Shown: one piece after another, positions 49,650 to 64,000 of the stretch
Position numbering within the stretch: the first letter of the stretch is position 1
Layout of the letters: every line of letters begins with the position of its first letter
Assembly (NCBI RefSeq): GCF_001999965.1
Contig: NZ_CP019646.1
Span: 2,728,001 to 2,792,000, forward strand
Direction: 5' to 3'
From: Limihaloglobus sulfuriphilus
GTDB lineage: Bacteria > Planctomycetota > Phycisphaerae > Sedimentisphaerales > Sedimentisphaeraceae
Length of the DNA: 64,000 nt
The notes under the pieces: generated by a model
The model's input: only the letters and a program-made list of their open reading frames with translations
Database searches by the model: none
Told to the model about the DNA's origin: nothing
Made by a program: the position numbers and the translations under genes

Positions 49650-50084
49650 TCAACGGCTTTGACGGGGAAAGGTCAAACTGACAGAATATTCAACCGGGCA
49701 GGAAACCGAGTTTGATACCAGACAGTATTTTTCAGCTAAATTTGCCGCGTCTCTTATCTTGCTTTCAAATTCGCTGTTTAAGGCCTCGACCTCTGCGACA
49801 ACGGAGACACTGGTAAACCTTAAGCCTTGCTTGGTTTTTTCGACAGTACCTTCCGCATTTGATTTATAGCTCAAGATCTCTATCTTGAATTTATCAAGAA
49901 AATGAAAAAATACGAGCATTATGCAGCTGTTAATGGATGCCACAAACAATTCTTCCGGATTCAACGTATCCCGACTGCCTCCATACTCTACGGGAGCACC
50001 AACCGCAATACTGTCAATCCCGCTCATTGAAGTCATAGCTTTTTCTCTTGCGTTCTTCGTAATAGTGTTCTTAAACAATTCCAT
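49650..50084 (-). CDS. OsmC-family peroxiredoxin-like protein
   Basis: 144 residues. NPEELFVASINSCIMLVFFHFL carries the first conserved Cys; YCLVSNSVSCPVEYSVSL carries the second. Both are needed for organic-hydroperoxide reduction in Ohr/OsmC proteins. The GGSRDTLNPEEL start of the domain is typical. It lies 45 bp after the RND pump gene and would be the last gene of the long minus-strand unit. Its redox chemistry fits a unit that begins with thioredoxin. Confidence 0.9.
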   Translation of the reverse strand: MELFKNTITKNAREKAMTSMSGIDSIAVGAPVEYGGSRDTLNPEELFVASINSCIMLVFFHFLDKFKIEILSYKSNAEGTVEKTKQGLRFTSVSVVAEVEALNSEFESKIRDAANLAEKYCLVSNSVSCPVEYSVSLTFPRQSR

Positions 50085-50129
50085 ATACAGCTCTCTTTTG
50101 GGTTTAAATATAACAATTAAAATCCATAT

Positions 50130-53100
50130 TTATACAGCCTCACTTCTGACTGTACTGCCGCGAACCATGCCGTAAGCTGCCGGCAGAAACAGCAATGTTA
50201 ACAGCAGTGAATACAATAATCCGCCAATAACGGCGATGGCCATCGTAACGAGCATGCCGCCTTCCTCGCCGAGGTTCATTGCCAGCGGCACCAGCCCCAG
50301 AACAGTGGTTAACTGGGTCATTAATATCGGGCGGACACGAGTTGGGGCCGCTTTACGAATCGCCTCCAATGGTGCCATTCCGGCCTGACGATACTGCTCA
50401 GCTAAGGTCAGCAGCACCACACCCTGCGAGGTGATTCCGCCCATCATTACAAGAATTCCGATCTGGACAGTAACCCCGACAGGCTCTCCGGCCATCAACA
50501 GCGCGATAAGGGCTCCCGTCAGTGCCAACGGAACATTCAGAATAATAAGGAAAGGCAACACAAAGGATTCATACTGAATGGCCAATATTACATAAGCAAA
50601 TAAGGTGGCAAAACCGATTATCAGGCCCACTACGCGGCGACTTTCCTGGATAAACCGGGCCTCGCCGCCCATAGAAATCTCGACACCTGAAGGCGGCTCC
50701 AGATCAACAGCAACCTGCTCAGCCCTGGCAAGGGCCTCACCCACACTGACGCCGGCCGGGTCAGCACGGACAATGACTCTGATTACCTGGTCTTCACGGG
50801 AGAGTTCAACAGGCCCGACAGCTCGACGAACCTCTGCGATGTCCCGCAAATAAATCGGTTCACCATTACGCGTTTCCATGATCAGGTTTTCCAGATGTTT
50901 TTTGCTGGTAAGCGATATCTCCGGCACCATAACTCTAATCGGATAATATTCTGTTCCTTCACGATACTGGGTACTTACTATACCATGAACCAAGGTGCGT
51001 AATGTCGCCGCAACTTGATCAACAGAAACACCCATTGCAGAGGCACGGGCGCGGTCTATGTGCACGCGGTACTCAGGTTTTGTCATATCCATCGAAATGT
51101 TCACGCCGGATAATCCCGGTGTCTTAGTTAGTTGAGATGCTAATTTCTCAGAAAATTCATAGAGCATTACAACATCACTTCCCTTGATATTCACTTCGAC
51201 ATCCTGTTCGCCGACTTTTCGGAGACCTTTGATGGGTCTTTGTTTAACCGGCAGTTTTGCACCAGGCTCCTGCGACTGTACTTTGGCTACCAACGGCTTG
51301 ATCTTCTTAACAAACTCTTCTGTCGTGATGTCCCGCCGGCTTCGCGGCACAAGCTGGATATCCAGCTTTCCTTCGTTACTTACCTCAAGGGTATAAAGCC
51401 CAAAAATTCTGCCGCCGGAAAGACGGAAAGTGCTTTGTACTTCAGGTAAATCTCCAATCTGATTATCTACCCGTGTAAGAATCCGGTCAACCTCAGCCAG
51501 GGATGATCCGGCCGGCATCATGAGTTTAACCATGACTCTTCCGTCATCCAGCTTGGGTAAGAACTCTGTCCCAGACCGAGACGCTAACCAAATACTTATG
51601 GTAAAGATTATCAGTGTCAAAGCTACAACAAGCCACTTGAGCCGTAAACAACCGCCCAGCAGTCGCTCATAACTTCGTATTCCAAATCCAATTACGTGGT
51701 CGAAAATTCTGGCTATCGTCGAAGTCCGTCCGCTTTTTTCGCTTCGCAGCAATCTATCGGTCAGTAACGGTGTAAGGGTCAGGGCGATCAGCAGCGAAAC
51801 CACGACGACCCCGCCCACGACAAAAACCAGCTCACTCAGCAGTTCGGCAACCATGCCGGGGACAAACACAAATGGCAGAAATATTGCAAGAAATGTAAGA
51901 GTCGCAGCCACAATTGCAGAACCAACCTCTTCTGTGCCGCGATGGGCATAGTCTTTTACTCCGTCAGACTTTAACCGGGTGATATTTTCCATAACAACAA
52001 TGGAATTGTCCAGGATCACTCCTAAAGCAACCACCAGCCCTCCCAGGGAGAACACATTTATAGAAAAGTTAGCTGCCTTCATCACACCAAAATTAATCAG
52101 TAGAGTTACCGGCAGTGCCACCATCATCACAACCACCTGCCGCCATCTTCCCAGGAAGAGATATACCACAATAACAACTAAGATCGCGGACAAAATGGCT
52201 GAATCACGTACACTATTGACAGAATTTCTAACGTAGAGACCATCGTCTTCTACGTAACCAAACTCAATGTCTGCCGGGATATCACCGCTGTTCCGCAGTT
52301 CTTCCAAACGAGCTTTTACTCCTTCTGCAACGGTAACTGCGTTAGCAGCATATTGTTTAAGCACTTTGAACTCTACGCAGGGCTTGCCGTTAAAATGTGT
52401 ATTGATCCGCATTTCTGCATGGGAATCTTCTACACGGGCAACATTCCTTATATACACCTCTTCCCCGTTAGAATCTCTGGCTACGACAATATCTCTTATC
52501 TCCTCAAGATTTTCAAACTCTCCCATAGTGCGGGCGATAATCTCTCGAGGTTCAATGGTGACACGGCCGGCAAATGTTTCGAGATTTCCCTCATAGAGAG
52601 CTTTGGCAACCTGCGACGGAGAAAGCTTGTAGGCCTGAAGACGTTCCGGGTCAAGGTGAACACGAATTTCGCGTTCCATTCCTCCGACAACCTCAGCTCC
52701 GGCCGTTCCTTGAACAGAAGCCAGTCGATCTATAAGCCAGTTATCCGCCCACTCGCGAAGCCAGACAAGGTCGTGCTCGTCCGATGTCAGCATCACTTCA
52801 ATTACAGGCAATTGCGACGGATCGGCTTTGATGATGACAGGAGGATCCATGTCACGGGGCAATTTCTTTGTGACCCTGCCCATGGCAGCCACCACATCCT
52901 GAAAAGCCACTTCAACATCCACACCATAGGAAAAATTTGCCAGCAGCGTGTACATACCTTCTATACTGGATGATTCAATGTAATCGAGATTATCGACGGT
53001 AGCTATTACCTCCTCCAGCGGATCGGCTATGTTGTTCTCGATATCATCAGCTGTAGCACCGGACCACCAGATATGGATTTTTACCATAGGATAGGAGACA

Positions 53101-53216
53101 TCCGGTAAATAATTCACATCAAGCTGCGTGAGGCTAAAAAGACCGGCGGCAAAGGTCGCAACAACTAATACGGTAACCGCTACGGGGCGTTTGAGTGCAA
53201 TATCTGTTATCTTCAT
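50130..53216 (-). CDS. RND efflux pump, inner-membrane permease (HAE1/AcrB-like)
   Basis: 1,028 residues with the 12-helix, two-half RND layout. N-terminal MKITDIALKRPVAVTVLVVA, PDVSYPMVKIHIWWSGATAD, SLGGLVVALGVILDNSIVVMEN in helix 4 (an LDN in place of the DD pair of AcrB, as in many HAE1 relatives) and the second-half ALIALLMAGEPVGVTVQIGIL. It expels hydrophobic compounds by proton antiport together with the adaptor and TolC-like genes upstream. The start overlaps the adaptor stop by four bases (ATGA), indicating translational coupling. Confidence 0.95.
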   Translation of the reverse strand: MKITDIALKRPVAVTVLVVATFAAGLFSLTQLDVNYLPDVSYPMVKIHIWWSGATADDIENNIADPLEEVIATVDNLDYIESSSIEGMYTLLANFSYGVDVEVAFQDVVAAMGRVTKKLPRDMDPPVIIKADPSQLPVIEVMLTSDEHDLVWLREWADNWLIDRLASVQGTAGAEVVGGMEREIRVHLDPERLQAYKLSPSQVAKALYEGNLETFAGRVTIEPREIIARTMGEFENLEEIRDIVVARDSNGEEVYIRNVARVEDSHAEMRINTHFNGKPCVEFKVLKQYAANAVTVAEGVKARLEELRNSGDIPADIEFGYVEDDGLYVRNSVNSVRDSAILSAILVVIVVYLFLGRWRQVVVMMVALPVTLLINFGVMKAANFSINVFSLGGLVVALGVILDNSIVVMENITRLKSDGVKDYAHRGTEEVGSAIVAATLTFLAIFLPFVFVPGMVAELLSELVFVVGGVVVVSLLIALTLTPLLTDRLLRSEKSGRTSTIARIFDHVIGFGIRSYERLLGGCLRLKWLVVALTLIIFTISIWLASRSGTEFLPKLDDGRVMVKLMMPAGSSLAEVDRILTRVDNQIGDLPEVQSTFRLSGGRIFGLYTLEVSNEGKLDIQLVPRSRRDITTEEFVKKIKPLVAKVQSQEPGAKLPVKQRPIKGLRKVGEQDVEVNIKGSDVVMLYEFSEKLASQLTKTPGLSGVNISMDMTKPEYRVHIDRARASAMGVSVDQVAATLRTLVHGIVSTQYREGTEYYPIRVMVPEISLTSKKHLENLIMETRNGEPIYLRDIAEVRRAVGPVELSREDQVIRVIVRADPAGVSVGEALARAEQVAVDLEPPSGVEISMGGEARFIQESRRVVGLIIGFATLFAYVILAIQYESFVLPFLIILNVPLALTGALIALLMAGEPVGVTVQIGILVMMGGITSQGVVLLTLAEQYRQAGMAPLEAIRKAAPTRVRPILMTQLTTVLGLVPLAMNLGEEGGMLVTMAIAVIGGLLYSLLLTLLFLPAAYGMVRGSTVRSEAV

Positions 53217-54499
53217 TGTTTCTCTTCTCCTGATATTTTCTCAGTGGTTGCAGTCGATGAAGTATCGCCCACCTGAACTGCGGCTCCATCCTTGAGATTC
53301 AAGTTGCCGGCTACAACAACGATTTCACCGCCTTTCAAGCCTTCGGTGATCTGTATATACTCTTGTTGCTCCAACCCTGTCTTAACTTGTCTCATGTGGG
53401 CTTTGCCATCTTCAATAACATAAACGATCCTGCTGCCTCTGGGGGTTGCTATTATGGCTGAATCAGGAACGACGAGGGCATCATCGACCACACGGCCCTG
53501 CACCGATACTCTGGCAAAAAGATGGGGTATCAGCTCGACCGGTTCAACAATCTTCAGCTCAATGATACGAGTGCGGGATTCCATTTCGATGCGTGGGTAA
53601 ACCCTCGCGATTTTTGCATTAAATGTCTTTCCTGGAAACGCATCCAGCCGCACAACAGCTTCAGTCTCTTTGCGGATCTGGGCAGCGCTGCTTTCCGGCA
53701 GTCCCGCCCGAACCACCAGAGATGATGTGTCCATCATTTTGAGTAACTTTGCCCGAGGCGTAGCCAGGTCGCCCGGCCGAACATATACCTCCGTAATAAT
53801 GCCGGGAAACGGAGATGTAAGAAAACATTCATCAAGTTTTGCCTGAGCAAGAGCCAGCTTTGCAGCTGCCTCATCTACATCAGCCTGTGCCACCGCAATC
53901 TCTGTTTTTGTCGGCCCGGCTTCTAGCATGGACAGCCTTTCCTTAGCGGCCCCTAACTGTGTATGGCATTTTATGTAATCGACTCTCGCCTTCTCGGCCA
54001 TTTCACCAGGCAGAGAACCGTTTTCAACAAGCGACTTGATCCGGTCTAAGTCTTTTTTTGCAAAATCCGTGCAATCCTCAAAATGCCGAACAGATTCTTT
54101 TGCCTCAGCGATCTCTTCCGGACGTGCACCGGCCATAAGGTCAGCCAGCCTTGCTTCGGTTACGGCCAGTGCCGCCTGAGCCGCTGCTACCTCCTGGCGA
54201 TACAAAGGCCGGTCAATTTCAATCAGCTTCTGCCCGGCCTTCTCCACAAAATCTCCTTCCCGCCAGGGGCAATAAGCTATCGGCCCTTCAACGGTCGCCT
54301 CCAGAGTCATTGTATTTGTCGCAACAACATCACCCGTAGTCTCCAGAATCTCTACTATGCGTGTCTTTTCCGCTCTGGTAACCTCTACAAACGGAGCTGT
54401 TTTGGTTTTACCGGCTGTACTTTTATCCTTGCAGCCGTTTAATCCGATAAAAACAGCTCCACAAACCATGGTTATCAATATATGTTTTAAAATTGTCAC
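53213..54499 (-). CDS. RND efflux periplasmic adaptor (membrane fusion protein)
   Basis: 428 residues. The signal ends in a lipobox-like FIGLNGCKDK, so probably a lipoprotein. Order: FVEVTRAEKTRIVEILETTG start, half lipoyl domain, a long alpha-hairpin (about 95-215: VAAAQAALAVTEARLADLMAG and VAQADVDEAAAKLALAQAKL), second lipoyl half with SPFPGIITEVYVRPGDLATP, and beta-barrel/C-terminal regions. It links the RND permease to the outer-membrane channel. Sixteen bases follow the universal stress protein gene. Confidence 0.93.
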   Translation of the reverse strand: MTILKHILITMVCGAVFIGLNGCKDKSTAGKTKTAPFVEVTRAEKTRIVEILETTGDVVATNTMTLEATVEGPIAYCPWREGDFVEKAGQKLIEIDRPLYRQEVAAAQAALAVTEARLADLMAGARPEEIAEAKESVRHFEDCTDFAKKDLDRIKSLVENGSLPGEMAEKARVDYIKCHTQLGAAKERLSMLEAGPTKTEIAVAQADVDEAAAKLALAQAKLDECFLTSPFPGIITEVYVRPGDLATPRAKLLKMMDTSSLVVRAGLPESSAAQIRKETEAVVRLDAFPGKTFNAKIARVYPRIEMESRTRIIELKIVEPVELIPHLFARVSVQGRVVDDALVVPDSAIIATPRGSRIVYVIEDGKAHMRQVKTGLEQQEYIQITEGLKGGEIVVVAGNLNLKDGAAVQVGDTSSTATTEKISGEEKQ

Positions 54500-54515
54500 T
54501 TGTTATCTCCTTGGA

Positions 54516-55433
54516 TTATTTGATGTTACAGCTTTCTTTAGTTGGATCAGCACCTTCAATTTGTCTGGGAATCAATAAGACAGGGGACTGCGAATGACGT
54601 ATTACATTGTGGCTGACACTGCCCAAAAATATCTCGCTTATAAATCCCCGTCCATGGCTGCCCATGATCACGGCACTCACATCTGTTCCATTTATTCTCT
54701 TTAATATCTCACTGACCGGCGAGCCGTAAGGAATTTCAATATCTATTTCAGCATCACCGATTTTTACCAATCTTTTTTTCAGCTCTTCTAGCCGTTGTTT
54801 ATCAATCTCATTAAATTCATCCAATCTGTCCTTAAGGTGAATACCCAGCCGGGCTTGATCTTGAACGTGCAAAAGGGTTACATGAACAGTACCGCACTCA
54901 ACAAATTTACATACATACTCGAACGCCAGAGACGAATGTTCTGAAAAATCTGTTGCATATAAAATGTGATGTCTCAAATTTTTATTGTTATCCGCATAAA
55001 GCGGTTTTCCGGTCTCTTCATCCGCCTTCAAATGAATGATTAGAACCGGTTTTTTTGTCTGATGTATGATTTCTGCAGCAGTGCCTCCCAATAAAATCTC
55101 ATTGGCTAAATTGTGGCCGTGTGATCCGGCTACAATAAGGGAGCAGTTTCGCTTCTCTGCAATTTTCGGAATCTGCTCGCCGGCAAGCCCAAGTTCTGCA
55201 ACTACTGTTGTTTTAATTCCTTTACTTTCCAGAATCTCTTTTTGTGTATCTAACGAAGACACAATAGAGTCTTTTATTTGATCGGGGAAAGCGACTTGCT
55301 CCTTAATCATAAAACACTGAGCAAGAACACATTCACGGGTGCCAAGCATATACAAAGCATCGGCGCATCCCAGAGTGGCGTAAGAGGACGGCGATGAATC
55401 TGTAGCAATGAGAACTTTAGAAAACATAATCAC
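54516..55433 (-). CDS. Tandem universal stress protein (two UspA domains)
   Basis: 305 residues. Domain 1 (about 1-140) has the nucleotide loop AGSHGHNLANEILLGGTAAE; domain 2 (about 155-295) has MGSHGRGFISEIFLGSVSHN. Both keep the G-2x-G-9x-G(S/T) ATP-binding pattern. Soluble, cytoplasmic. It is wedged between the TolC-type gene (6 bp) and the RND adaptor (16 bp), so it is certainly part of the efflux operon. Such a position suggests a sensory or regulatory role for pump activity; that is inference. Confidence 0.93.
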   Translation of the reverse strand: MIMFSKVLIATDSSPSSYATLGCADALYMLGTRECVLAQCFMIKEQVAFPDQIKDSIVSSLDTQKEILESKGIKTTVVAELGLAGEQIPKIAEKRNCSLIVAGSHGHNLANEILLGGTAAEIIHQTKKPVLIIHLKADEETGKPLYADNNKNLRHHILYATDFSEHSSLAFEYVCKFVECGTVHVTLLHVQDQARLGIHLKDRLDEFNEIDKQRLEELKKRLVKIGDAEIDIEIPYGSPVSEILKRINGTDVSAVIMGSHGRGFISEIFLGSVSHNVIRHSQSPVLLIPRQIEGADPTKESCNIK

Positions 55434-55439
55434 ACTCCA

Positions 55440-56885
55440 TTAAGGGTTAACATCATCTCCACATGGCAATCCCGCTGCCTGGCGGAACTGGGCTATCGCT
55501 GTGTTGCAGTCAGCCAGGGCACGGTAATAATTCATCTGAGAGCTCAGAAGAGCCGACTGGGCATCAAGAACATCGACAATCGCCCCCTTGCCCAGGTCAT
55601 ATTTTTCGCGTTCAATGCGCAGGGATTCTTTTGCCATCTCAACCGCTTTTTCCGTTACACCTACCCTTGCCCGCGTGGATTCTATATTTGAGGCGGCGGT
55701 TTCTACTTCGACCTGAATCTGAAGTTTCAATCTTCTTAAACTCTCTTCAATAGATCTCAACCGGCTGCGTTCACGCCTGATTCCCGCATCAATCCTTCCG
55801 CCTTCAAAAAGCGGCATCTCTGCGAAGAGACCAACCGAACCAACCTCGTTGTCTTCATCAAAATCATCTGAATCCCATCGGCTTCCATAGGAAGCTCGAA
55901 GAGAGATCTCGGGCAATCTTCGGGATTTGGCGACATCAAGCATTTTACGCTGAACATCCACCCTTGATATTAATGATTGATAATCCTGTCTGTATGCCAT
56001 TGCAAGTGTGAACCCACGGTCAAGTTCATCCGGTATGTCACCGAGTATCAGCTGCCCTTTGATATCGAGAACCTCAGTTTCCGTATCGCAACCAAGCAAA
56101 CTGGTTAATAAAAATCTTTGAATATCAAGCGTATTACGCTCACGAAGCAATTGCTGTTCAATATCTGCAAGCCGGACTTCGGTTCGCAGCAAATCAACAT
56201 GTGCGGCTTTTTGTGCTTCCATTAATTCTTTGGTCCTTTTAAAATGCTCCCGGAGTGTTTCCTGAGAAAAGATCAGCGAATTGATAACCTCCTTCTGGCC
56301 GAGCATCGAATAAAATACACTTGTAATATTGAAGACAAGCTCCCTTTGGCTGTGAGCCAGTTGATGTTGAGCCGACTTGGCAAGCAAGTCAGCCGCCTTG
56401 ACCTGATTTTGAAGACGCCCGCCTGTGTATAAAGGCATGTTCAATACAATATCTCCGGAGACTAGGTCGTCGGTGAATTGTAACACTTCTGAGGTTCCGG
56501 GCCTTCTGGGCTGAATCAGTCTATCTTCTCTAAAATGTTCATATCCGCCTTCTGCGCTAATAGTTGGCCATAAGGCTCCTTCTGCGATATCCTTACCTGC
56601 CAGAGAGGTCTCGGTATCCCATTGTCTCTGCATTATTTCAGGGTTATTTTCAAATGCAGTTTCAAGGCACTGCTCAAGAGTTAATTCTAATCCACACTTT
56701 TGAGCAGCAGAAACATCTTGTGAATCAGATACGTTGTCATAAGACTGACCTTTTAGAGTTTCCTTAAGCGGCTGTTTGAGCTTGACTGTTTCCGGTTTGC
56801 GGTAAATATCCTGATTACCTGCTGTGCAGCCGGATCCCTTGATTACTGCAAGTACTGTTAATGTTATGATAAATGTATTTTTCAT
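55440..56885 (-). CDS. TolC-family outer-membrane efflux protein
   Basis: 481 residues. Signal peptide with lipobox-like IKGSGC near residue 20. LTLEQCLETAFENNPEIMQRQW opens the first TolC repeat and ARVGVTEKAVEMAKESLRIEREKYDLGKGAIVDVL the second. PEISLRASYGSRWDSDDF and LFEGGRIDAGIRRERSRL are beta-strand/helix joins of the channel. It forms the outer-membrane duct for the RND pump encoded two genes further on. Confidence 0.94.
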   Translation of the reverse strand: MKNTFIITLTVLAVIKGSGCTAGNQDIYRKPETVKLKQPLKETLKGQSYDNVSDSQDVSAAQKCGLELTLEQCLETAFENNPEIMQRQWDTETSLAGKDIAEGALWPTISAEGGYEHFREDRLIQPRRPGTSEVLQFTDDLVSGDIVLNMPLYTGGRLQNQVKAADLLAKSAQHQLAHSQRELVFNITSVFYSMLGQKEVINSLIFSQETLREHFKRTKELMEAQKAAHVDLLRTEVRLADIEQQLLRERNTLDIQRFLLTSLLGCDTETEVLDIKGQLILGDIPDELDRGFTLAMAYRQDYQSLISRVDVQRKMLDVAKSRRLPEISLRASYGSRWDSDDFDEDNEVGSVGLFAEMPLFEGGRIDAGIRRERSRLRSIEESLRRLKLQIQVEVETAASNIESTRARVGVTEKAVEMAKESLRIEREKYDLGKGAIVDVLDAQSALLSSQMNYYRALADCNTAIAQFRQAAGLPCGDDVNP

Positions 56886-56947
56886 TAGAAAACCTTTTGT
56901 CAGTAATGACGTTCAAATGTTGAAAAACATCAATTGTTTGAAAGCAT

Positions 56948-58282
56948 TTATACGCTGTTATGTAAGATATCCATTTCTGTCAACACACCAGTAATATTCC
57001 CTTTTTTATCTGTCACAATGACTTTGTATTCATGTTTTCTCTTCATTTTCTGGGCTATTTCTGATATTGGAGCGTCATACCTGATGTTGAGCACAGGCAT
57101 AAGCTCTACCTGATCAAGCCTTCTATCAAGTGACACTTGATCCGCCAAAAGATTGATAAGCGATTCAGCAGTCAGCACTCCTGCTGGTTTATTATCATCT
57201 GATAAAACGATTATTGAATGTATATGTTCCTCATCCAGCATCTTTATCGCATCATGTAAAGTTGCTTTATTATGAAGGGCAAATACACCTACTGCCATAA
57301 TGTCCTGAGCTGTTTCTTCAGGTGTTTTACCAAATATTTTTGGAGTAAACTTAATATACCATGCAGCAGACTGAACCTGAATGATATAGGCAATGGCTAT
57401 GATCAGAGCTATATCAGAGCCCTGTTTCCCAAAAACAGTCATAGCAATAGCCAGTGCGATAGAGAGATTCCGCATCACCGTTCCGTAAACCAGAGCAATT
57501 GCATCCTCTCGAGAAAAAAGCAGTTTCCCGACTAATGTACTGATAGAGAAGTTGACAAAATAGAGTATTATCAGCGGCACCAGGGACATCAGAAGCAATG
57601 AAGGCTGTGATATAATTGTTTTGGATTTTATTGCCATCGCAACAAATACAATACCTAAGACACCTATGGTGGAAATCAGGGGAAACTTCTTTTTAATGTC
57701 TTTATGATATTTTGCTTCACCGTATCTCTTGATAATGAACCGCTGAGTTGAATAGCCGGCAACCATTGGAAGAAAGACAATAATTGCAATCTGTTTAAAC
57801 ACATTTAAAAGTGGAATTTCAATAACAGCCCCCATTAACCACTTGATATAAAGCGGTGTTGCCAGGGAACCCGCAATAAGACCAATGACAGTCATCTTAA
57901 TGGCTGCATTGATATTGCCTCTGGCAAAGCCCGTCCACGAAATCGTCATACCGCTTGTTGGAAGCAAAGCCGCCAGAAGCAAGCCAAGGGCTATAAGCGG
58001 ACTGTCTGAGAAAAAGAGCTTACCAATACCGAAGGCAGCGAATGGAATTATCGCAAAGTTGATGAACTGCGTAACCAGCTGAACCTTCACGTCACCTCCA
58101 GAGAATACTTTTTTGATCTGGAGATTTACCATCATCGGATAAACCATCAAAAACGTCAATGGCACAATAAAGGTCTTTAGGAAAGAGGCATCATAATAAT
58201 AACCGTAAATAAGACCTAATATCATGCAGGCAGGGATATTATAAACTAAATATTTCTGAGCAAATGCTATTTTATTCCACAT
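56948..58282 (-). CDS. BASS/ACR3-like permease fused to a pair of CBS domains
   Basis: 444 residues. The N-terminal ten-helix permease (about 1-315) resembles the bile-acid:sodium symporter/arsenite exporter superfamily: ALLPTSGMTISWTGFARGN in the re-entrant region and YGTVMRNLSIALAIAMTVFG in the second. The C-terminal 125 residues hold two CBS motifs: MLDEEHIHSIIVLSDDNKPA with LTAESLI, and KMKRKHEYKVIVTDKKGNIT with LTEMDIL. CBS pairs bind adenosyl ligands and gate transporters. The ACR3 active cysteine was not found, so arsenite is doubtful. Member of the sigma-54 unit. Confidence 0.82.
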   Translation of the reverse strand: MWNKIAFAQKYLVYNIPACMILGLIYGYYYDASFLKTFIVPLTFLMVYPMMVNLQIKKVFSGGDVKVQLVTQFINFAIIPFAAFGIGKLFFSDSPLIALGLLLAALLPTSGMTISWTGFARGNINAAIKMTVIGLIAGSLATPLYIKWLMGAVIEIPLLNVFKQIAIIVFLPMVAGYSTQRFIIKRYGEAKYHKDIKKKFPLISTIGVLGIVFVAMAIKSKTIISQPSLLLMSLVPLIILYFVNFSISTLVGKLLFSREDAIALVYGTVMRNLSIALAIAMTVFGKQGSDIALIIAIAYIIQVQSAAWYIKFTPKIFGKTPEETAQDIMAVGVFALHNKATLHDAIKMLDEEHIHSIIVLSDDNKPAGVLTAESLINLLADQVSLDRRLDQVELMPVLNIRYDAPISEIAQKMKRKHEYKVIVTDKKGNITGVLTEMDILHNSV

Positions 58283-58326
58283 ATATTAACTCCGGGCGTA
58301 AAAAACGATTCCAATAAACATCTATT

Positions 58327-58725
58327 TTAAGCCGGTACAGCTTTGATATCGCTGACCCACTTGATCAGTATTTCTGTCAGCAGCGGATTCGGTGCTTCAA
58401 GAAAAGAAACAACATAGTGGGTATCGGTCTCGCAGATACCGATCGCCCTGGGCCGGACAGATAAAACCCTAGGGTCTGTAAGTTTTTTTCCAAAACAGAA
58501 CAAAACCACCTTGGCCGCCATTATGGCTTTGTCAATAAGCCCCTCATCAATTCCAACAGTATGTTCATAATGGTCAAAAGTGCTGACATATCTGGCAAAT
58601 GGATGGTTTTCGATTTGATCGCAGAAATACGAACAAATCTCATCGACATTCTGAAAAGCAACATGAGTTTTTGGAAATTCTTTTGAGTAGATTGGATATG
58701 TATCTTGAAAATGGCATTGTTCCAT
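58327..58725 (-). CDS. Small conserved protein of unknown function
   Basis: 132 residues, soluble, no signal peptide and no domain I can name. Visible features are a FPKTHVAFQNVDEICSYFC start, a central HYEHTVGIDEGLIDKAIMAA and VRPRAIGICETDTHYVVSF. Two cysteines (C33 and C35, as CSYFCD) and several histidines could bind a metal or react with thiols, but this is speculation. It lies between thioredoxin (114 bp upstream) and the BASS-CBS permease (44 bp downstream) in the sigma-54 unit, so a redox or transport-linked role is suggested by context only. Confidence 0.72.
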   Translation of the reverse strand: MEQCHFQDTYPIYSKEFPKTHVAFQNVDEICSYFCDQIENHPFARYVSTFDHYEHTVGIDEGLIDKAIMAAKVVLFCFGKKLTDPRVLSVRPRAIGICETDTHYVVSFLEAPNPLLTEILIKWVSDIKAVPA

Positions 58726-58839
58726 TGATTCATCCTTATAATCAGGCCTTAATTACTTTATTAATTATTCATTACTGAGCTTAACGGCGAAATAAACACT
58801 GCGTCTCTCCACAGGTATTTATTCGCAAAGCCGCGGTTT

Positions 58840-59160
58840 TTACGACTGAGCAGTTATTGCATTTGCCAGGCTTTCTCCTGACTGTACGCCGACAAAACGC
58901 CGGACTTCACGCCCGTCTTTAAACAGGATCAGGGTCGGTATAGCCTGAATCCCATATTTCATCGCAACATCTTCGGCTTCATCCACATTCACTTTTAGAA
59001 TTCTTGCCTCATCTCTGGTTTCCGCGGCCAGTTCTTCTAATATCGGCACCTGCATTTTGCAGGGACCGCACCAGGGCGCCCAGAAATCTACCAGACTAAT
59101 TCCCTGTTCAATGATTTTTCCAAAGTTATCTGAATTAGCTTCTATAACTAAATCTGACAT
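58840..59160 (-). CDS. trxA: Thioredoxin
   Basis: 106 residues. The WAPWCGPCK active site is at about residues 28-36, followed by VNVDEAEDVAMKYGIQAIPT with the cis-Pro and LILFKDGREVRRFVGVQS. Standard length and cytoplasmic. It follows the small lipoprotein gene by 48 bp and probably supplies electrons to oxidised cysteines such as those of the OsmC protein in the same unit. Its location in a sigma-54 operon with efflux and stress genes is not the usual housekeeping setting, so it may be a dedicated copy. Confidence 0.96.
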   Translation of the reverse strand: MSDLVIEANSDNFGKIIEQGISLVDFWAPWCGPCKMQVPILEELAAETRDEARILKVNVDEAEDVAMKYGIQAIPTLILFKDGREVRRFVGVQSGESLANAITAQS

Positions 59161-59208
59161 ATTGACTCCTGAAATAATTTTTTTTCAATAACTGCTATTA
59201 CGGGCTGC

Positions 59209-59379
59209 TTAGTCCTTACAAACCTCAGGCACTTCACCTGCGTAATCATACATCTTCTGATTTTGTTCATACGCCGTACGGCATTCATCGCTTGTTTCTC
59301 GGGATTCCTGACATCCGGAAATAAAAAACAAGGCCAGAAAACCAACAGCGACCAAAATGGATATATTTACTGTTTTCAC
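59209..59379 (-). CDS. Small cysteine-containing lipoprotein
   Basis: 56 residues from GTG 59379, which has GGAG about 8 bases upstream; a frame continuing to 59424 has no ribosome site. The signal VKTVNISILVAVGFLALFFI ends in a lipobox SGC. The mature part, QESRETSDECRTAYEQNQ onward, is short, acidic and has two further cysteines (DEC and VCKD). First gene after the sigma-54 promoter at 59512-59530. No family recognised; possibly a periplasmic thiol or metal sensor. Confidence 0.65.
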   Translation of the reverse strand: MKTVNISILVAVGFLALFFISGCQESRETSDECRTAYEQNQKMYDYAGEVPEVCKD

Positions 59380-59511
59380 AATATCTCTCCATATATTAAA
59401 GTTTCGTTGTTTTTTAAGCGGCATAATATCAACATCTGGATTCGTGAAAAACTTGTACCGAATACCGTTGTTAAATCAGCCTATTTAAATAATTCAAAGC
59501 TGACTGATAGA

Positions 59512-59530
59512 GTTGCAAAAGGTATGCCAG
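59512..59530 (-). promoter_or_regulatory. Sigma-54 promoter of the thioredoxin-efflux unit
   Basis: Minus strand CTGGCATACCTTTTGCA has GG (59528-59527) and GC (59516-59515) separated by exactly 10 bases, close to the consensus TGGCACG-N4-TTGCA. The start should lie near 59503, about 125 bases before the small lipoprotein gene. It sits directly behind the terminator of the activator gene. Confidence 0.75.
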
Positions 59531-59536
59531 AAAACT

Positions 59537-59563
59537 AAAAAAAGACCTGCATTGTCACAGGTC
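59537..59563 (-). terminator. Intrinsic terminator of activator 1
   Basis: Stem GACCTG/CAGGTC with an 8-base loop (59544-59563), followed on the minus strand by seven U. It lies about 108 bases past the stop at 59671 and separates the activator gene from the sigma-54 unit it probably controls. Confidence 0.8.
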
Positions 59564-59624
59564 CATACAGATAAAGTGGTTAGATAAATGAGTGGAGCGG
59601 GGAATATATTTTGTGAAGCTCTGG

Positions 59625-59656
59625 GTATGCGCAAACCAATGCAGGAATGCGCATAC
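59625..59656. promoter_or_regulatory. Inverted repeat GTATGCGCA/TGCGCATAC, probable enhancer site
   Basis: Perfect 9-bp inverted repeat with a 14-base gap; each arm contains or nearly contains the self-palindrome ATGCGCAT. Its centre is about 112 bp upstream of the sigma-54 -24 element, the usual place for an activator binding site, and lies just past the activator 1 stop codon. Confidence 0.55.
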
Positions 59657-59670
59657 TAAATGAAAGAAGT

Positions 59671-61047
59671 TTACAGTCCGAATCGGCGCAATTTCTTATA
59701 CAAACCGGCCCTGGTTATACCTAACATCCGGGCTGCCTGCGATTTATTGCCTTCAGCTTTGGCTAAGACTTCTTCTAACTTTGATCTTTCGTCAAAATCT
59801 CTTGTCTTAGCAGATTTAACTTTGGAAAAAGGTTTGTTTGGCCCTGTTAAAGTTGCAGGCAAACTATCGAATGTGATAACCTTCTGACTGCTGGTGGTAA
59901 CCGCAAAAGCGTGTTCTATTACATGTTCAAGCTCACGGATGTTTCCGGGCCAATTATGATTTATAAACCGATCCATCGCTTGGGGAGAACAGCCCTCTAT
60001 GCTTTTGTTATATTCCTCATTGAACTGACTTATAAAATGAGAAATTAAATCCTGCAGATCTTCTTTACGCTCACGTAACGGCGGCACATTCAACTCAACA
60101 ACATGCAGACGGTAATAAAGGTCATCTCTGAATTGGCCGGTATTAACTAAATCTGAAAGTTTCTTGTTGGAAGCTGCTATTACCCGAACATCAATTGGCC
60201 TTGGCAGACTCTCGCCAACCCGCGTAACCTCCTTTTCCTGCAGCACCCTCAAAAGCTTAACCTGTGATGAAAGCGGCATTTCTCCAATTTCATCCAAAAA
60301 TAGAGTGCCGCCAAACGCAGTCTCAAAACATCCCTCCCTGTTTTCGACCGCACCCGTAAAAGCCCCTTTTCTGTGCCCAAACAACTCCGCTTCTAAAAGC
60401 GATTGTGTCAAAGCACCACAGTTTACTGCGAGGAATATCTTATCCGACCTGTTGCTTTCGGAATGTATTGTCTTAGCTACTAATTCTTTACCGGTTCCGG
60501 TTTCTCCTTCAATAAGGATGTTTGCGTCATTCTTAGAGACTACCTGGATCAATTCATAAAGCCTTTGCATCTTTTCAGAGCGTCCGACCATTTGTCCGAA
60601 TTTTCCGCGTCTGGCGATTTCATGTTTGAGAAGACGGATCTCTGTTCGGGCCTGCTTGATCAGGCTCACATCAATCAGTGCTTCAATTGCGCCGATAATC
60701 TGATTCTGATCATCAAAAACAGGACGGCTTTTTCGCATCACAGGAACAACAGAACCGTCTTTTTTACGCATTTCGCATTCCACCTCTCCGTAATTGCCGC
60801 CGGAAAGCAATGGACAGAATGTTTTGCGTGTTTCAGGGTCTTGATTGGCACAGATATTCAACCTTAATTTTTCGCAGGTTTGGCCGACTATCTCAGATTC
60901 ATTGTAGCCTGTTATTTCTTCTGCCGAGTTATTCCAGTAAATAACCTGATGGTTCTGATCAACCATAAAGACAGCGCAGGGTACTGTTTCCAGAAGTGCT
61001 TCTCTGAAATAATGGTTGATTTTGTCAAGTTTTTTCATAACTTTCAT
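59671..61047 (-). CDS. Sigma-54-dependent transcriptional activator (PAS-AAA+-Fis), activator 1
   Basis: 458 residues. PAS domain about 12-125 (VPCAVFMVDQNHQVIYWNNS, with four cysteines that could sense redox or a metal). AAA+ domain about 150-385: Walker A GETGTGKELV, sigma-54 contact loop GAFTGA, Walker B TLFLDEIGEM and R-finger region DDLYYRLHVV. The C-terminal Fis-type HTH is KSQAARMLGITRAGLYKKLRR. It should act at a sigma-54 promoter, most likely 59512-59530 downstream. A promoter with a 16-base spacer lies at 61104-61131. Confidence 0.95.
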   Translation of the reverse strand: MKVMKKLDKINHYFREALLETVPCAVFMVDQNHQVIYWNNSAEEITGYNESEIVGQTCEKLRLNICANQDPETRKTFCPLLSGGNYGEVECEMRKKDGSVVPVMRKSRPVFDDQNQIIGAIEALIDVSLIKQARTEIRLLKHEIARRGKFGQMVGRSEKMQRLYELIQVVSKNDANILIEGETGTGKELVAKTIHSESNRSDKIFLAVNCGALTQSLLEAELFGHRKGAFTGAVENREGCFETAFGGTLFLDEIGEMPLSSQVKLLRVLQEKEVTRVGESLPRPIDVRVIAASNKKLSDLVNTGQFRDDLYYRLHVVELNVPPLRERKEDLQDLISHFISQFNEEYNKSIEGCSPQAMDRFINHNWPGNIRELEHVIEHAFAVTTSSQKVITFDSLPATLTGPNKPFSKVKSAKTRDFDERSKLEEVLAKAEGNKSQAARMLGITRAGLYKKLRRFGL

Positions 61048-61103
61048 TCTTTAAAAGTATTTATCAGCTGTGAACTGTCCTGGGAACTGTCACCGTTCAA
61101 ATA

Positions 61104-61131
61104 AAATTAACATTATTTTACTCATTGTCAA
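61104..61131 (-). promoter_or_regulatory. Candidate promoter of activator 1
   Basis: Minus strand TTGACA (61131-61126), a 16-base spacer and TAATTT (61109-61104). Expected start near 61097, 50 bases before the ATG. Confidence 0.5.
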
Positions 61132-61289
61132 CGTGATTCCTGCCTGATTGAAAGTGTTAGCGAGAAATTAGATGCATCTGGGCTATTCATACCCCTAAAG
61201 TTTACACGAAAGAATATCAACCTGCATTCGTAACACATTTGAGATAAACATCTTACTGCCCCTTCGCGGGGGACCAAATAAACCGTAGA

Positions 61290-61317
61290 TTGCAAAGGTT
61301 AACAGAAACTGTATAAT
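61290..61317 (+). promoter_or_regulatory. Promoter of activator 2
   Basis: TTGCAA, a 16-base spacer and a perfect TATAAT. The start is expected at about 61324, next to the ATG at 61325, so the mRNA would be leaderless. Confidence 0.55.
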
Positions 61318-61324
61318 TATATTG

Positions 61325-62659
61325 ATGAAACATGAACCTGTTCAACAAAAAGATGTAATTTTAGACAGTATTGCTGATGGTGTCTTCACTGTTAATAAAA
61401 ACTGGCGTATCACGACCTATAACCGGGCCGCCGAGCAGATAACCGGAATACCTCGTCGAAAAGCAATAGGTTTGATTTGCAAAGATGTTCTGCGTGCCGA
61501 TGTCTGTGAAAACAACTGCGCCCTGAGGCACACAATGGATACAGGTGAACCGGTAATTAACAAGCCTGTTTGTATAATAAGTGCGCAAGGCAGACGCAAA
61601 TCCATTACAATATCCACCGCCTTGCTTAAGGACAAAAAAGGTCAGGTTATAGGCGGAGTGGAAACATTTCGGGATATGACTGTTGTTGAAGAACTGAGAA
61701 AGCAGGTCAAAAAACAGTACAGCTGCGAAGACATAATCAGCCGCAACCACAAAATTCAGGAACTTTTTGACATTCTGCCGCAGGTTGCCCAAAGCAATTG
61801 CACAGTTTTGCTTGAAGGCCAGACTGGAACAGGCAAAGAGCTTTTCGCCAGGGCTATTCACAATCTGAGCCCCCGCAAAGATAAGCCTTTTATCGCCGTT
61901 AACTGCAGTGCACTTCCAGATACATTGCTCGAATCTGAGTTATTTGGTTACAAAGCCGGCGCCTTTACCGATGCGAAAAAGGACAAACCGGGCCGATTTG
62001 CGTTGGCAGAGGGAGGCACCATTTTCCTGGATGAAATCGGTGAAATGTCCTCGTCCGTTCAGGTTAAACTTCTAAGGGTGCTTCAGGAAAAAACTTATGA
62101 ACCAGTTGGCGCCGTTTCTTCTGAAAAAGCAAATGTACGGATTATCACCGCGACTAACAAAGATGTAGAGGAGCTGGTTGAGAAGGATATGTTCAGGGAT
62201 GACCTTTATTATCGAATCAACGTAGTTAAACTCTGCCTTCCGCCTCTGAAGGAAAGAAATGAAGATATACCGCTTCTTGTTGATCATTTTGTACATAAAT
62301 TCAATCAGGTTTACGACAAAAACATCTGCTGCCTAAGTGACAACGCAATGGCAGCACTTATGAGTTATGAATTTCCCGGCAATATAAGGGAGCTTGAAAA
62401 TATTATTGAGCACAGCTTTATCCTTTGTCACGGCGACGTTATTGAGGCCAAAGATTTGCCCCCGGCAATCCAAAAAGATGTCGGAGGCAAGGATCAAAAC
62501 CTTGACAATTTCAGGACTCTCAGACAGATGGAAGCTCTGATGATAGAAAGGGCTTTGAGTCGTAATGGAGGCAATCGTACGGCGGCAGCAAAGGAATTGG
62601 GGATAAATGCCAGCACACTTTTCAGAAAACTAAAAAACATCAATTCTACCAGCAAATAA
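61325..62659 (+). CDS. Sigma-54-dependent transcriptional activator (PAS-AAA+-Fis), activator 2
   Basis: 444 residues from ATG 61325; a TTG one codon earlier is less likely. PAS domain about 8-120 (ADGVFTVNKNWRITTYNRAA) with a cysteine set CKDVLRADVCENNC that may sense redox or bind a cofactor. AAA+ about 145-375: GQTGTGKELF, GAFTDA in place of GAFTGA, IFLDEIGEM and DDLYYRINVV. HTH GGNRTAAAKELGINASTLFRK. It is divergent from activator 1 and upstream of a sigma-54 promoter at 62839. The GAFTDA variant of the sigma-54 contact loop is worth noting. Confidence 0.94.
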   Translation: MKHEPVQQKDVILDSIADGVFTVNKNWRITTYNRAAEQITGIPRRKAIGLICKDVLRADVCENNCALRHTMDTGEPVINKPVCIISAQGRRKSITISTALLKDKKGQVIGGVETFRDMTVVEELRKQVKKQYSCEDIISRNHKIQELFDILPQVAQSNCTVLLEGQTGTGKELFARAIHNLSPRKDKPFIAVNCSALPDTLLESELFGYKAGAFTDAKKDKPGRFALAEGGTIFLDEIGEMSSSVQVKLLRVLQEKTYEPVGAVSSEKANVRIITATNKDVEELVEKDMFRDDLYYRINVVKLCLPPLKERNEDIPLLVDHFVHKFNQVYDKNICCLSDNAMAALMSYEFPGNIRELENIIEHSFILCHGDVIEAKDLPPAIQKDVGGKDQNLDNFRTLRQMEALMIERALSRNGGNRTAAAKELGINASTLFRKLKNINSTSK

Positions 62660-62691
62660 TTTTCCTGCCCCTTCGTCCAACTTTTAACACT

Positions 62692-62739
62692 GTTGCATAT
62701 TGCACGGAACTATTTCAATTCAGTATTGCAGTACGCAAT
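62692..62739. promoter_or_regulatory. Two inverted-repeat elements, probable enhancer for the NifX-like gene
   Basis: GTTGCATATTGCAC (62692-62705) and ATTGCAGTACGCAAT (62725-62739), both of the form TTGC-N4/5-GCAA or close to it. They lie about 107-141 bp upstream of the -24 element, the usual distance for sigma-54 activator sites. Confidence 0.4.
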
Positions 62740-62838
62740 TAAAATTGATGCGGCATTTCTTTTACAGAACTTCTCTAAATTCGTAAGCTCTTTAAATACA
62801 CACACTTACCAACCACGCCCCCTATTCGTAGAATATTA

Positions 62839-62852
62839 GGCACAGAAGTTGC
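62839..62852 (+). promoter_or_regulatory. Sigma-54 promoter of the NifX-like unit
   Basis: AGGCACAGAAGTTGCAT has GG (62839-62840) and GC (62851-62852) with exactly 10 bases between and keeps GGCAC and TTGCA of the consensus. The transcript would start near 62863, giving a leader of about 14 bases that just contains GGAG at 62866-62869. Confidence 0.75.
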
Positions 62853-62876
62853 ATAAAAGAAGTATGGAGATTGCTT

Positions 62877-63266
62877 ATGAGAATTGCAATATCAATTTGG
62901 CAGAATAATGTTTCGAGCGTCTTTGACTTTGCCAATAAACTTCTGCTCGTCGAGTTGGAAAACGGTAAAGAAAAAAACCGTAAGGAAGTTTTTTTGACAG
63001 AGCTAAGCGGACAGGAAAAAGCAATTAGATTGAGGCGGCTGAATGTTGATGTGCTCATCTGCGGGGCAATCTCCAGGTCGTTGAATGATGTCTTGAACAG
63101 CTCAGAAATTAAGGTGCTGCCCTTTGTTACAGGCAGGACAGAGCAGGTTTTGGATGCATACAAAACAGGACTGTTGTATCTGCCAAAATATGCCTTGCCC
63201 GGCTGCTGGAAAGGTGCCCGCAAAGGTTTTGACAGCCGGCAAGACAGACATAACAGAGATTTATAA
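62877..63266 (+). CDS. NifX/NifB-like dinitrogenase iron-molybdenum cofactor biosynthesis protein
   Basis: 129 residues from ATG 62877 with GGAG 8 bases upstream; an earlier TTG is not needed. The fold is the NifX/NifB-C-terminal alpha/beta domain: MRIAISIWQNNVSSVFDFAN, then VDVLICGAISRSLNDVL and KVLPFVTGRTEQVLDAY. In nitrogen-fixing bacteria it carries iron-molybdenum cofactor precursors. In anaerobes without nitrogenase, as likely here, relatives of this domain sit with DUF5320 and FmdB proteins and have unknown function. The C-terminus is basic (KGFDSRQDRHNRDL). Confidence 0.88.
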   Translation: MRIAISIWQNNVSSVFDFANKLLLVELENGKEKNRKEVFLTELSGQEKAIRLRRLNVDVLICGAISRSLNDVLNSSEIKVLPFVTGRTEQVLDAYKTGLLYLPKYALPGCWKGARKGFDSRQDRHNRDL

Positions 63267-63356
63267 GAATATTTTTCATTGCCTTGCGAGGCCAACAGCT
63301 GTCCAAAGTGTGGAACAAAAATGACAAGAGGTTAACTTTTTTGAAAGGAGACTATT

Positions 63357-63719
63357 ATGCCAGGTGGCGATGGAACAGGTCCCGGAGGAATGGGACCAAT
63401 GACAGGTAGAGCCGCGGGTTTTTGCGTCGGCTATTCAGTGCCGGGTTATGCAAATCCTGTTGGCGGACGTGGATATTTCGGCTGGGGCCGCGGCGGAGGC
63501 TGGGGTCGCCGTAACTGGTTCTATGCAACCGGTCTTCCAGGGTGGCAAAGAGCTGGATACGGCGTACCGGCATATAGCCGCGCAGGGTTTGCGCCAACAG
63601 CTGCACCACAGCAAGAGATAGACGCTCTCAAAGGCCAGGCCGAATACCTTGGAGATACGCTTGATGGGATACAAAAGCGTATTGAGGAACTAGAAAGCCA
63701 GAAAAACAGCAAAGAGTGA
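63357..63719 (+). CDS. DUF5320 domain-containing protein
   Basis: 120 residues. GDGTGPGGMGPMTGRAAGFC at the N-terminus is the DUF5320 signature. A glycine/tryptophan/tyrosine-rich middle (GRGYFGWGRGGGWGRRNWFY) follows, and a C-terminal coiled coil (QQEIDALKGQAEYLGDTLDG then RIEELESQ) ends it. AAAGGAG precedes the ATG. This family often accompanies NifX/NifB-like proteins in anaerobes; function unknown. It lies 90 bp after the NifX-like gene and is probably co-transcribed. Confidence 0.87.
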   Translation: MPGGDGTGPGGMGPMTGRAAGFCVGYSVPGYANPVGGRGYFGWGRGGGWGRRNWFYATGLPGWQRAGYGVPAYSRAGFAPTAAPQQEIDALKGQAEYLGDTLDGIQKRIEELESQKNSKE

Positions 63720-63933
63720 GATTAAGATAGCTGCGAATTTAGCTATCTCAGGCTCTTAAGGGATTTATGGGGATAGTGGTTCGTATAATGCACGGCACTA
63801 TCTCCAGCTTTATCGGTAGATTCAGCCCTTTATTGCAGGGCTGTACAATAAGGTGGCAAGTGTTTGCCATCCAGTATTTAAGACCGCTGTATTTTTAAGT
63901 GAAGCTGTAACTAATTCATGAGGAGTTAATTTA
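63720..63933. other. Hairpin-rich gap between DUF5320 and FmdB genes
   Basis: Perfect repeats are AGATAGCT/AGCTATCT (63725-63748), GATAGTG/CACTATC (63772-63802), CAGCCCT/AGGGCTG (63823-63843) and the palindrome TGGCAA-GTGT-TTGCCA (63854-63869). The first may be a terminator without U-tract. The last resembles a sigma-54 promoter, but the GG to GC distance is 9 rather than 10. Confidence 0.45.
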
Positions 63934-64000
63934 ATGCCGATATTTGAATACAAATGTAAAAAATGCGGTGCAAAAAGTGAATTTCTGGAAAAATCCGGCA
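63934..64000 (+). CDS. FmdB-family zinc-ribbon protein, 5' part only
   Basis: The window ends after 22 codons: MPIFEYKCKKCGAKSEFLEK. The CxxC of the FmdB putative regulatory zinc ribbon is complete so far. GAGGAG lies about 9 bases before the ATG. Family members are small and their role, perhaps in formamidase or metal regulation, is unproven. It continues the plus-strand NifX/DUF5320 group. Confidence 0.85.
   Translation, partial: MPIFEYKCKKCGAKSEFLEKSG

Follow-up and report, generated by a model that had tools for sequence, protein, structure and literature searches.

Does an efflux operon of Limihaloglobus sulfuriphilus form one coupled stress response with the NifX-like operon beyond the pair of sigma-54 activator genes beside it, or is each operon switched separately? 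The window analysed was a 64-kb stretch of this genome (NZ_CP019646.1 positions 2,728,001-2,792,000), and feature coordinates are given as window positions. Genes were called from an open reading frame (ORF) listing and Pfam profile matches, with some curated family models and their cut-offs, and promoters were searched on both strands using a sigma-54 position weight matrix (PWM). Nine minus-strand genes, two PAS-AAA-Fis activators and a set of plus-strand genes had been reported in a first-pass annotation. Their positions and families were all borne out by ORFs and Pfam, and the redox/metal character ascribed to the district was supported. The single coupled response proposed there was not supported as stated: the evidence points to two regulons, with activators that are 37% identical and different candidate enhancers. 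We consider it moderately probable that these are two adjacent sigma-54 regulons, each separately switched, one for efflux and thiol functions (Module A, the minus unit) and one ORP-like (Module B, the plus unit). The regulatory features are as follows.

59514 to 59529, minus strand: sigma-54 -24/-12 promoter of the minus unit, TGGCATACCTTTTGCA; highest PWM score in the window
62838 to 62853, plus strand: sigma-54 promoter of the plus unit, AGGCACAGAAGTTGCA; second-highest PWM score in the window
59671 to 61047, minus strand: EBP1, PAS-AAA(GAFTGA)-Fis, proposed activator of the minus unit (Pfam)
61322 to 62659, plus strand: EBP2, PAS-AAA(GAFTDA)-Fis, proposed activator of the ORP-like unit (Pfam)
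59625 to 59656, minus strand: paired TGCGCA enhancer (upstream activating sequence, UAS), GTATGCGCA-N14-TGCGCATAC, between the EBP1 stop codon and the EBP1 terminator
59543 to 59564, minus strand: EBP1 terminator, a 9-bp stem followed by a T-run, upstream of the minus-unit promoter
62692 to 62706, plus strand: tentative EBP2 site, GTTGCATATTGCACG; weak, with similar elements in L021 and L009

The earlier assignment of one GG-N10-GC promoter to each unit was confirmed, as both lie directly before their units and are conserved in relatives. As background, one strand of a 1.5-Mb Markov simulation contained 13 PWM scores of 15 or more. The strict sigma-54 pattern WGGCAYNNNNNTTGCW was found at 19 sites in the 3.87-Mb genome. 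Both unit promoters are among them, only 3.3 kb apart, and flank two of the six strong sigma-54 activator matches in the genome. A sigma-54-like match at 51873 (score 15.2), which falls within the RND gene and antisense to it, was rejected as chance. The rpoN gene is present at 3656847-3657320 (3.657 Mb; PF04552, 204 bits).

Related loci were drawn mostly from contigs of metagenome-assembled genomes (MAGs): L005 is a Sedimentisphaerales MAG, L007 a MAG, L009 Candidatus Tritonobacter, L015 a Chlorobiaceae MAG and L022 an Anaerohalosphaeraceae MAG; L010, L020 and L021 are Desulfobacteraceae, and L003 is the same genome past the window end. EBP1 runs in the same direction as the minus unit and has orthologues at the same place in L005 (79%) and L007 (65%), where the order is EBP1, enhancer pair, promoter, lipoprotein, thioredoxin, DUF6858, permease. 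The promoter of these two loci (scores 18.6 and 19.0) keeps its position before the lipoprotein and is the best site of each; the GCGCA pair, 20-21 bp apart, is kept between the EBP1 orthologue and the promoter. The paired-enhancer pattern is matched at three distinct genomic places, that of the minus unit included. The best-scoring sigma-54 site of L009 (18.8) lies directly before tolC, and that of L020 before the thioredoxin gene; among loci related to the minus module, such a promoter is present wherever the contig extends to the upstream end.

EBP2 orthologues lie upstream of nifX, with a promoter between, in L022 (65%) and L021 (53%). Strong or moderate sigma-54 sites precede nifX in L021, L022 and L023 (the L023 site is weak). 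The EBP2-site pattern was not matched in L022 or L023, and a common site fits just three of five upstream regions. A single enhancer common to both units was searched for and was not found. In L009, the gene of an EBP2-type protein (58-60%) is transcribed away from tolC-adaptor-RND-DUF6858. Read from these sequences, the sigma-54 wiring is conserved; the activator facing the pump differs between lineages. In all seven activators compared, two PAS cysteines are aligned, and each has a third at a spacing that differs between the families. We infer that these cysteines let the PAS domains respond to a signal of redox, sulfur or metal type.

The genes of the minus unit, in order of transcription, are:

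59209 to 59379, minus strand: small cysteine-containing lipoprotein, first gene; GTG start at 59379 after GGAGAG; lipobox and ribosome-binding site read directly
58840 to 59160, minus strand: thioredoxin, WCGPC; TIGR01068 118.5 bits, above cut-off
58327 to 58725, minus strand: DUF6858, a small alpha/beta protein and the signature gene of the module; PF21651 171 bits
56948 to 58282, minus strand: SBF/BASS permease, ACR3-like, with a C-terminal CBS pair; Pfam and curated-model matches
55440 to 56885, minus strand: TolC-like outer-membrane channel; PF02321 in two stretches
54516 to 55433, minus strand: tandem universal stress protein (Usp); PF00582 in two stretches
53213 to 54499, minus strand: RND periplasmic adaptor; TIGR01730 197.8 bits, above cut-off
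50130 to 53216, minus strand: RND pump, HAE-1-like, full-length; PF00873 803 bits
49650 to 50084, minus strand: OsmC-like protein, last gene; PF02566 61 bits

DUF6858 is the gene that had been left as unknown in the first-pass annotation. Among the nine genes, spacing lies between a 4-bp overlap and a 62-bp gap, the sole exception being 114 bp between the thioredoxin and DUF6858 genes. Within the unit, neither a strong terminator nor a strong promoter was seen, and a generic sigma-70 scan stayed at background level (26 matches, 25.8 expected). The lipoprotein gene is kept in L005; in L007 it is a readable stretch with stops.

A DUF6858 search of genome contigs gave 11 loci. Module partners lie beside the gene in six of them (L005, L006, L007, L008, L009 and L010), and a seventh, L015, has the permease alone, without CBS. 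In the epsilonproteobacterial loci L011-L013 and in Roseospira (L014), no module partner directly adjoins DUF6858. The module recurs piecemeal around a core of thioredoxin, TolC-adaptor-RND, DUF6858 and the ACR3-like CBS permease; its carriers are Sedimentisphaerales, Anaerohalosphaeraceae, Tritonobacter and Desulfobacteraceae MAGs and one Chlamydiota bin. OsmC was not found in the related loci, several of which are truncated, and Usp was not seen in them. The comparison with other Phycisphaerae that had been suggested earlier found the minus module nearly absent: DUF6858 occurs in 1 of 392 Planctomycetota genomes and the adaptor orthologue (E < 1e-100) in 2 of 392. Each occurs in 1 of 395 genomes from the phylum of the Desulfobacteraceae MAG.

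Identity across phyla is high. The RND pump has 84% identity with the Tritonobacter pump and 78% with the Desulfobacteraceae one, equal to DnaK between genera of the order Sedimentisphaerales (74-84%), and adaptor orthologues reach 65-68% in L009 and L010/L020. Given this pump identity and the sporadic distribution, horizontal transfer is the simplest reading, and the module is probably moving horizontally. GC content does not mark it as foreign; a DUF6858 search of plasmids gave no match, and one of viral contigs gave none. In the genomes sampled, the minus module is a sporadic feature common to several phyla, not a phycisphaeral trait.

Three genes of the plus unit begin within the window:

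62871 to 63266, plus strand: NifX/ORP-like protein; PF02579 26.0 bits, just below the cut-off of 26.3; 48% to L022
63357 to 63719, plus strand: DUF5320 protein; PF17253 87.8 bits
63934 to 64000, plus strand: start of an FmdB-type zinc ribbon gene that crosses the window end; PF09723 at L003:1935-2135

These are the three genes that the first-pass annotation had listed. They are present as described, but the unit does not stop with them: the operon runs at least 5.4 kb beyond the window end, where FmdB is followed by genes for a NifX-DUF5320-ferredoxin fusion, MinD-ferredoxin, ferredoxin, a second MinD-ferredoxin, Mrp/NBP35 and a radical SAM protein. On this gene content the plus unit is best classed as an ORP-like operon, a variant of a sigma-54 system described in anaerobes. 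The Mrp/NBP35 gene (L003:5754-6425, 223 aa) lacks the middle of the P-loop domain and is out of frame before the gap; it is probably non-functional or an assembly fault. Two related loci have neighbours of their own. In L022:1-10690, an ArsR-type regulator, TolC, an adaptor and a different RND pump lie directly upstream of EBP2-nifX-nifX. In L023:497-4475, a protein read by eye as aldehyde:ferredoxin oxidoreductase-like precedes nifX-nifX-DUF5320, with a possible tungsten or molybdenum link.

The arrangement could also have arisen by chance, from two unrelated operons with the sigma-54 promoter type alone in common. That the modules are separate in other genomes, and that the minus module was probably acquired, would suit such an origin. 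It is nevertheless unlikely, given the closeness of two of the 19 strict sites around two of the six strong activator matches and the recurrence of efflux genes beside EBP2 or ORP-like genes. We regard as quite unlikely one integrated regulon, in which a single cue would act on both EBP1 and EBP2, with the pump and ORP-like proteins working together, for example in exporting by-products of metal-sulfur cluster turnover. The cysteines of both PAS domains are consistent with it, as are the ORP-like genes or EBP2 that adjoin TolC-adaptor-RND in L009 and in L022, the latter having another kind of pump; against it stand the divergence of the activators and of their candidate enhancers, and a Desulfobacteraceae genome that has the two modules on separate contigs, each beside a different activator. 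Two separately switched regulons remain the preferred reading.

What Module A would export was considered from its permease, its pump and its neighbours. Orthologues of the permease were found in L005/L006/L007 (80-87%) and, without CBS, in L015 (59%). Its best curated family is ACR3, but the score is 85.8 bits against a cut-off of 282.8, and PCTAM, the motif with the transmembrane-helix-4 cysteine of ACR3, reads PTSGM in this permease as in each of the four relatives; a separate ACR3-like gene of the same genome has PCTAM. An identity as arsenite exporter was rejected on this score and the absent cysteine. In the RND pump, transmembrane helix (TM) 4 reads LDN and TM10 reads SQG; the solved pumps in the alignment carry D-D and K at these positions. 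In AcrB, the TM4 D-D and TM10 Lys positions carry protons. D-N in TM4 with Gln in TM10 is common to L009 and L020; the Gln occurs also in L008 and the D-N in L068. Energy coupling in this pump may differ from that of AcrB. The pump protein scores higher with multidrug models than with CusA/CzcA.

Sulfur genes lie beside related loci (a TauE-type exporter, CoA-disulfide-reductase-like proteins and DsrE in L009; rhodanese in L020), apparently pointing to sulfur chemistry, and thioredoxin, with OsmC here, fits thiol repair. For DUF6858, a fold search of PDB and BFVD with an AF2 model (pLDDT 85) returned nothing at E < 0.001, and weak DUF302/PsbP-like matches (E about 0.01 or more, TM-score about 0.5) were not used. 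In Tritonobacter the DUF6858 frame (L009:8283-8825) opens with a lipobox-like signal sequence, which hints at an extracytoplasmic place there. In the Desulfobacteraceae copy (L010:10001-10264 / L019) the first third is missing and a TGA stop is present. Least likely of all is a metal(loid) resistance operon in which permease and pump would rid the cell of a transition metal or of arsenite or antimonite: ACR3 as nearest family, a nickel-responsive SCO4226-like gene in the Desulfobacteraceae copy and Sulfurimonas copies of DUF6858 beside a protein read as cation-efflux without a family test lend it something, yet the ACR3 score, the lacking cysteine motif and the higher multidrug-model score of the pump make it improbable.

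Several points weigh against two separately switched regulons with a defined efflux module. Transcription of the nine minus-strand genes as a single unit is no more than plausible, with the 114-bp gap after the thioredoxin gene and no strong internal terminator seen. Usp and OsmC stand outside the recurrent core and occur only in the copy of this genome. The order of genes varies in relatives: DUF6858 comes before the permease here and in L005/L007, and after the pump in L006, L008, L009 and L010. Of the three outcomes that the first-pass annotation would have counted as refuting, none applies cleanly: the genome has rpoN, the unit shows neither a strong internal promoter nor a strong internal terminator, and content recurs in relatives, if not in the same order. 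The activator facing the pump in Tritonobacter is EBP2-type, not EBP1, and the targets of the two activators may overlap. As the permease lacks the arsenite cysteine, a metalloid substrate is just one option. Misbinning is possible in the MAG contigs.

Under the two-regulon reading, we infer the pairing of each activator with the unit proposed for it above, as well as any co-regulation of the two modules. EBP1 would bind its pair of TGCGCA sites, some 130 bp upstream, and open the promoter at 59514-59529. The likely role of Module A would then be to export a toxic compound, either thiol-reactive or linked to sulfur or a metal(loid), and to serve thiol repair under anaerobic stress, its core having presumably moved between phyla. 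EBP2 would turn on the ORP-like operon, whose NifX-type and 4Fe-4S/P-loop ATPase proteins would handle metal-sulfur clusters. The genes, promoters, enhancer and their conservation are read directly from sequence; signal and substrate are proposed.

As a rare efflux group with the same type of switch in unrelated bacteria, Module A looks like a travelling stress module. A broader reading is put forward tentatively, as possible but doubtful: an undescribed mobile module of anaerobes, made of DUF6858, a CBS-gated ACR3-like permease, an RND clade whose coupling residues are altered and a cysteine-PAS sigma-54 activator, which possibly exports reactive sulfur or thiol-bound toxicants and is co-inherited with ORP-like operons. 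In a limited literature search, no description of a thioredoxin-DUF6858-CBS permease-RND set under a cysteine-PAS activator was found, and no paper on DUF6858. The novelty suggested for the combination by the first-pass annotation stands, within that search, for the minus unit; it falls for the plus unit, which resembles published ORP operons (PMC3897727, PMC6345978). DUF6858, an unstudied family, gains a consistent genetic context and a candidate regulator; the same sigma-54 wiring recurs with an efflux module that probably moves horizontally; and next to that module an anaerobic planctomycete is seen to have an ORP-like metal-sulfur operon. Should the pump indeed work with D-N/Q for D-D/K, its energy coupling would be of interest.

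Elsewhere in this genome, the intergenic strict sites, near-consensus at the chaperone genes, lie before hsp20, clpB, two groES/groEL loci, dnaK and a type III-like glutamine synthetase (names by sequence reading, not family scans). Across the order, the best sigma-54 site upstream of dnaK scored 16.9-20.4 in all 28 readable regions; inside the dnaK genes scores were at most 10.8. A trend to sigma-54 promoters at chaperone genes has been reported computationally (PMC12316311). About 8 kb from dnaK, a histidine kinase lies with an NtrC-type response regulator (2813500-2815574 of the contig), a candidate activator of the chaperone promoters. The glutamine synthetase gene (L034:2083-2216 and 2453 onward), with its sigma-54 promoter, is divergent from another sigma-54 activator gene.

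Known systems resemble parts of the locus. The RND, adaptor and TolC gene set is that of TolC-dependent HAE-1 pumps (MdtB, OqxB and AcrB relatives); the RND protein here differs in its TM4 D-N and TM10 Gln, scores under the curated subfamily cut-offs and is predicted to be sigma-54 controlled. With ACR3/BASS (SBF) permeases the SBF domain is shared, whereas the permease here has no ACR3 cysteine, carries a C-terminal CBS pair and has DUF6858 as partner. Among PrdR-type CBS-PAS-AAA-Fis activators (NF041552), PrdR residues 126-576 align with EBP1 and the CBS part, residues 6-123, is matched by the CBS pair of the permease, both matches far under the NF041552 cut-off; the pair sits on the permease here and on the activator in PrdR. 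As a fusion in PrdR, this split over two proteins hints that permease and activator may have a ligand in common.

Desulfovibrio ORP (orange protein) operons are sigma-54 controlled and activated by DVU2106, and encode Orp8 (NifX-type), Orp3/Orp4 (4Fe-4S) and Mrp (PMC3897727, PMC6345978); the loop variant of DVU2106 is GAFTDA (PMC4641369). Like orp1/orp2 of D. vulgaris, the plus unit has a sigma-54 promoter and an adjacent one-component GAFTDA activator (EBP2), and in common with them it has a NifX/Orp8-type domain, two P-loop ATPases each with two 4Fe-4S motifs, and Mrp. It differs in being one co-directional operon with DUF5320, a zinc ribbon and radical SAM, and its Mrp is internally deleted and without the Di-Nase domain of the MrpORP (Mrp-Di-Nase) fusion. 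The unit is termed only ORP-like because it has neither that fusion nor a second divergent ORP operon: in Desulfovibrio two divergent ORP operons surround the activator, whereas here there is one, and on the other side lies an unrelated efflux module.

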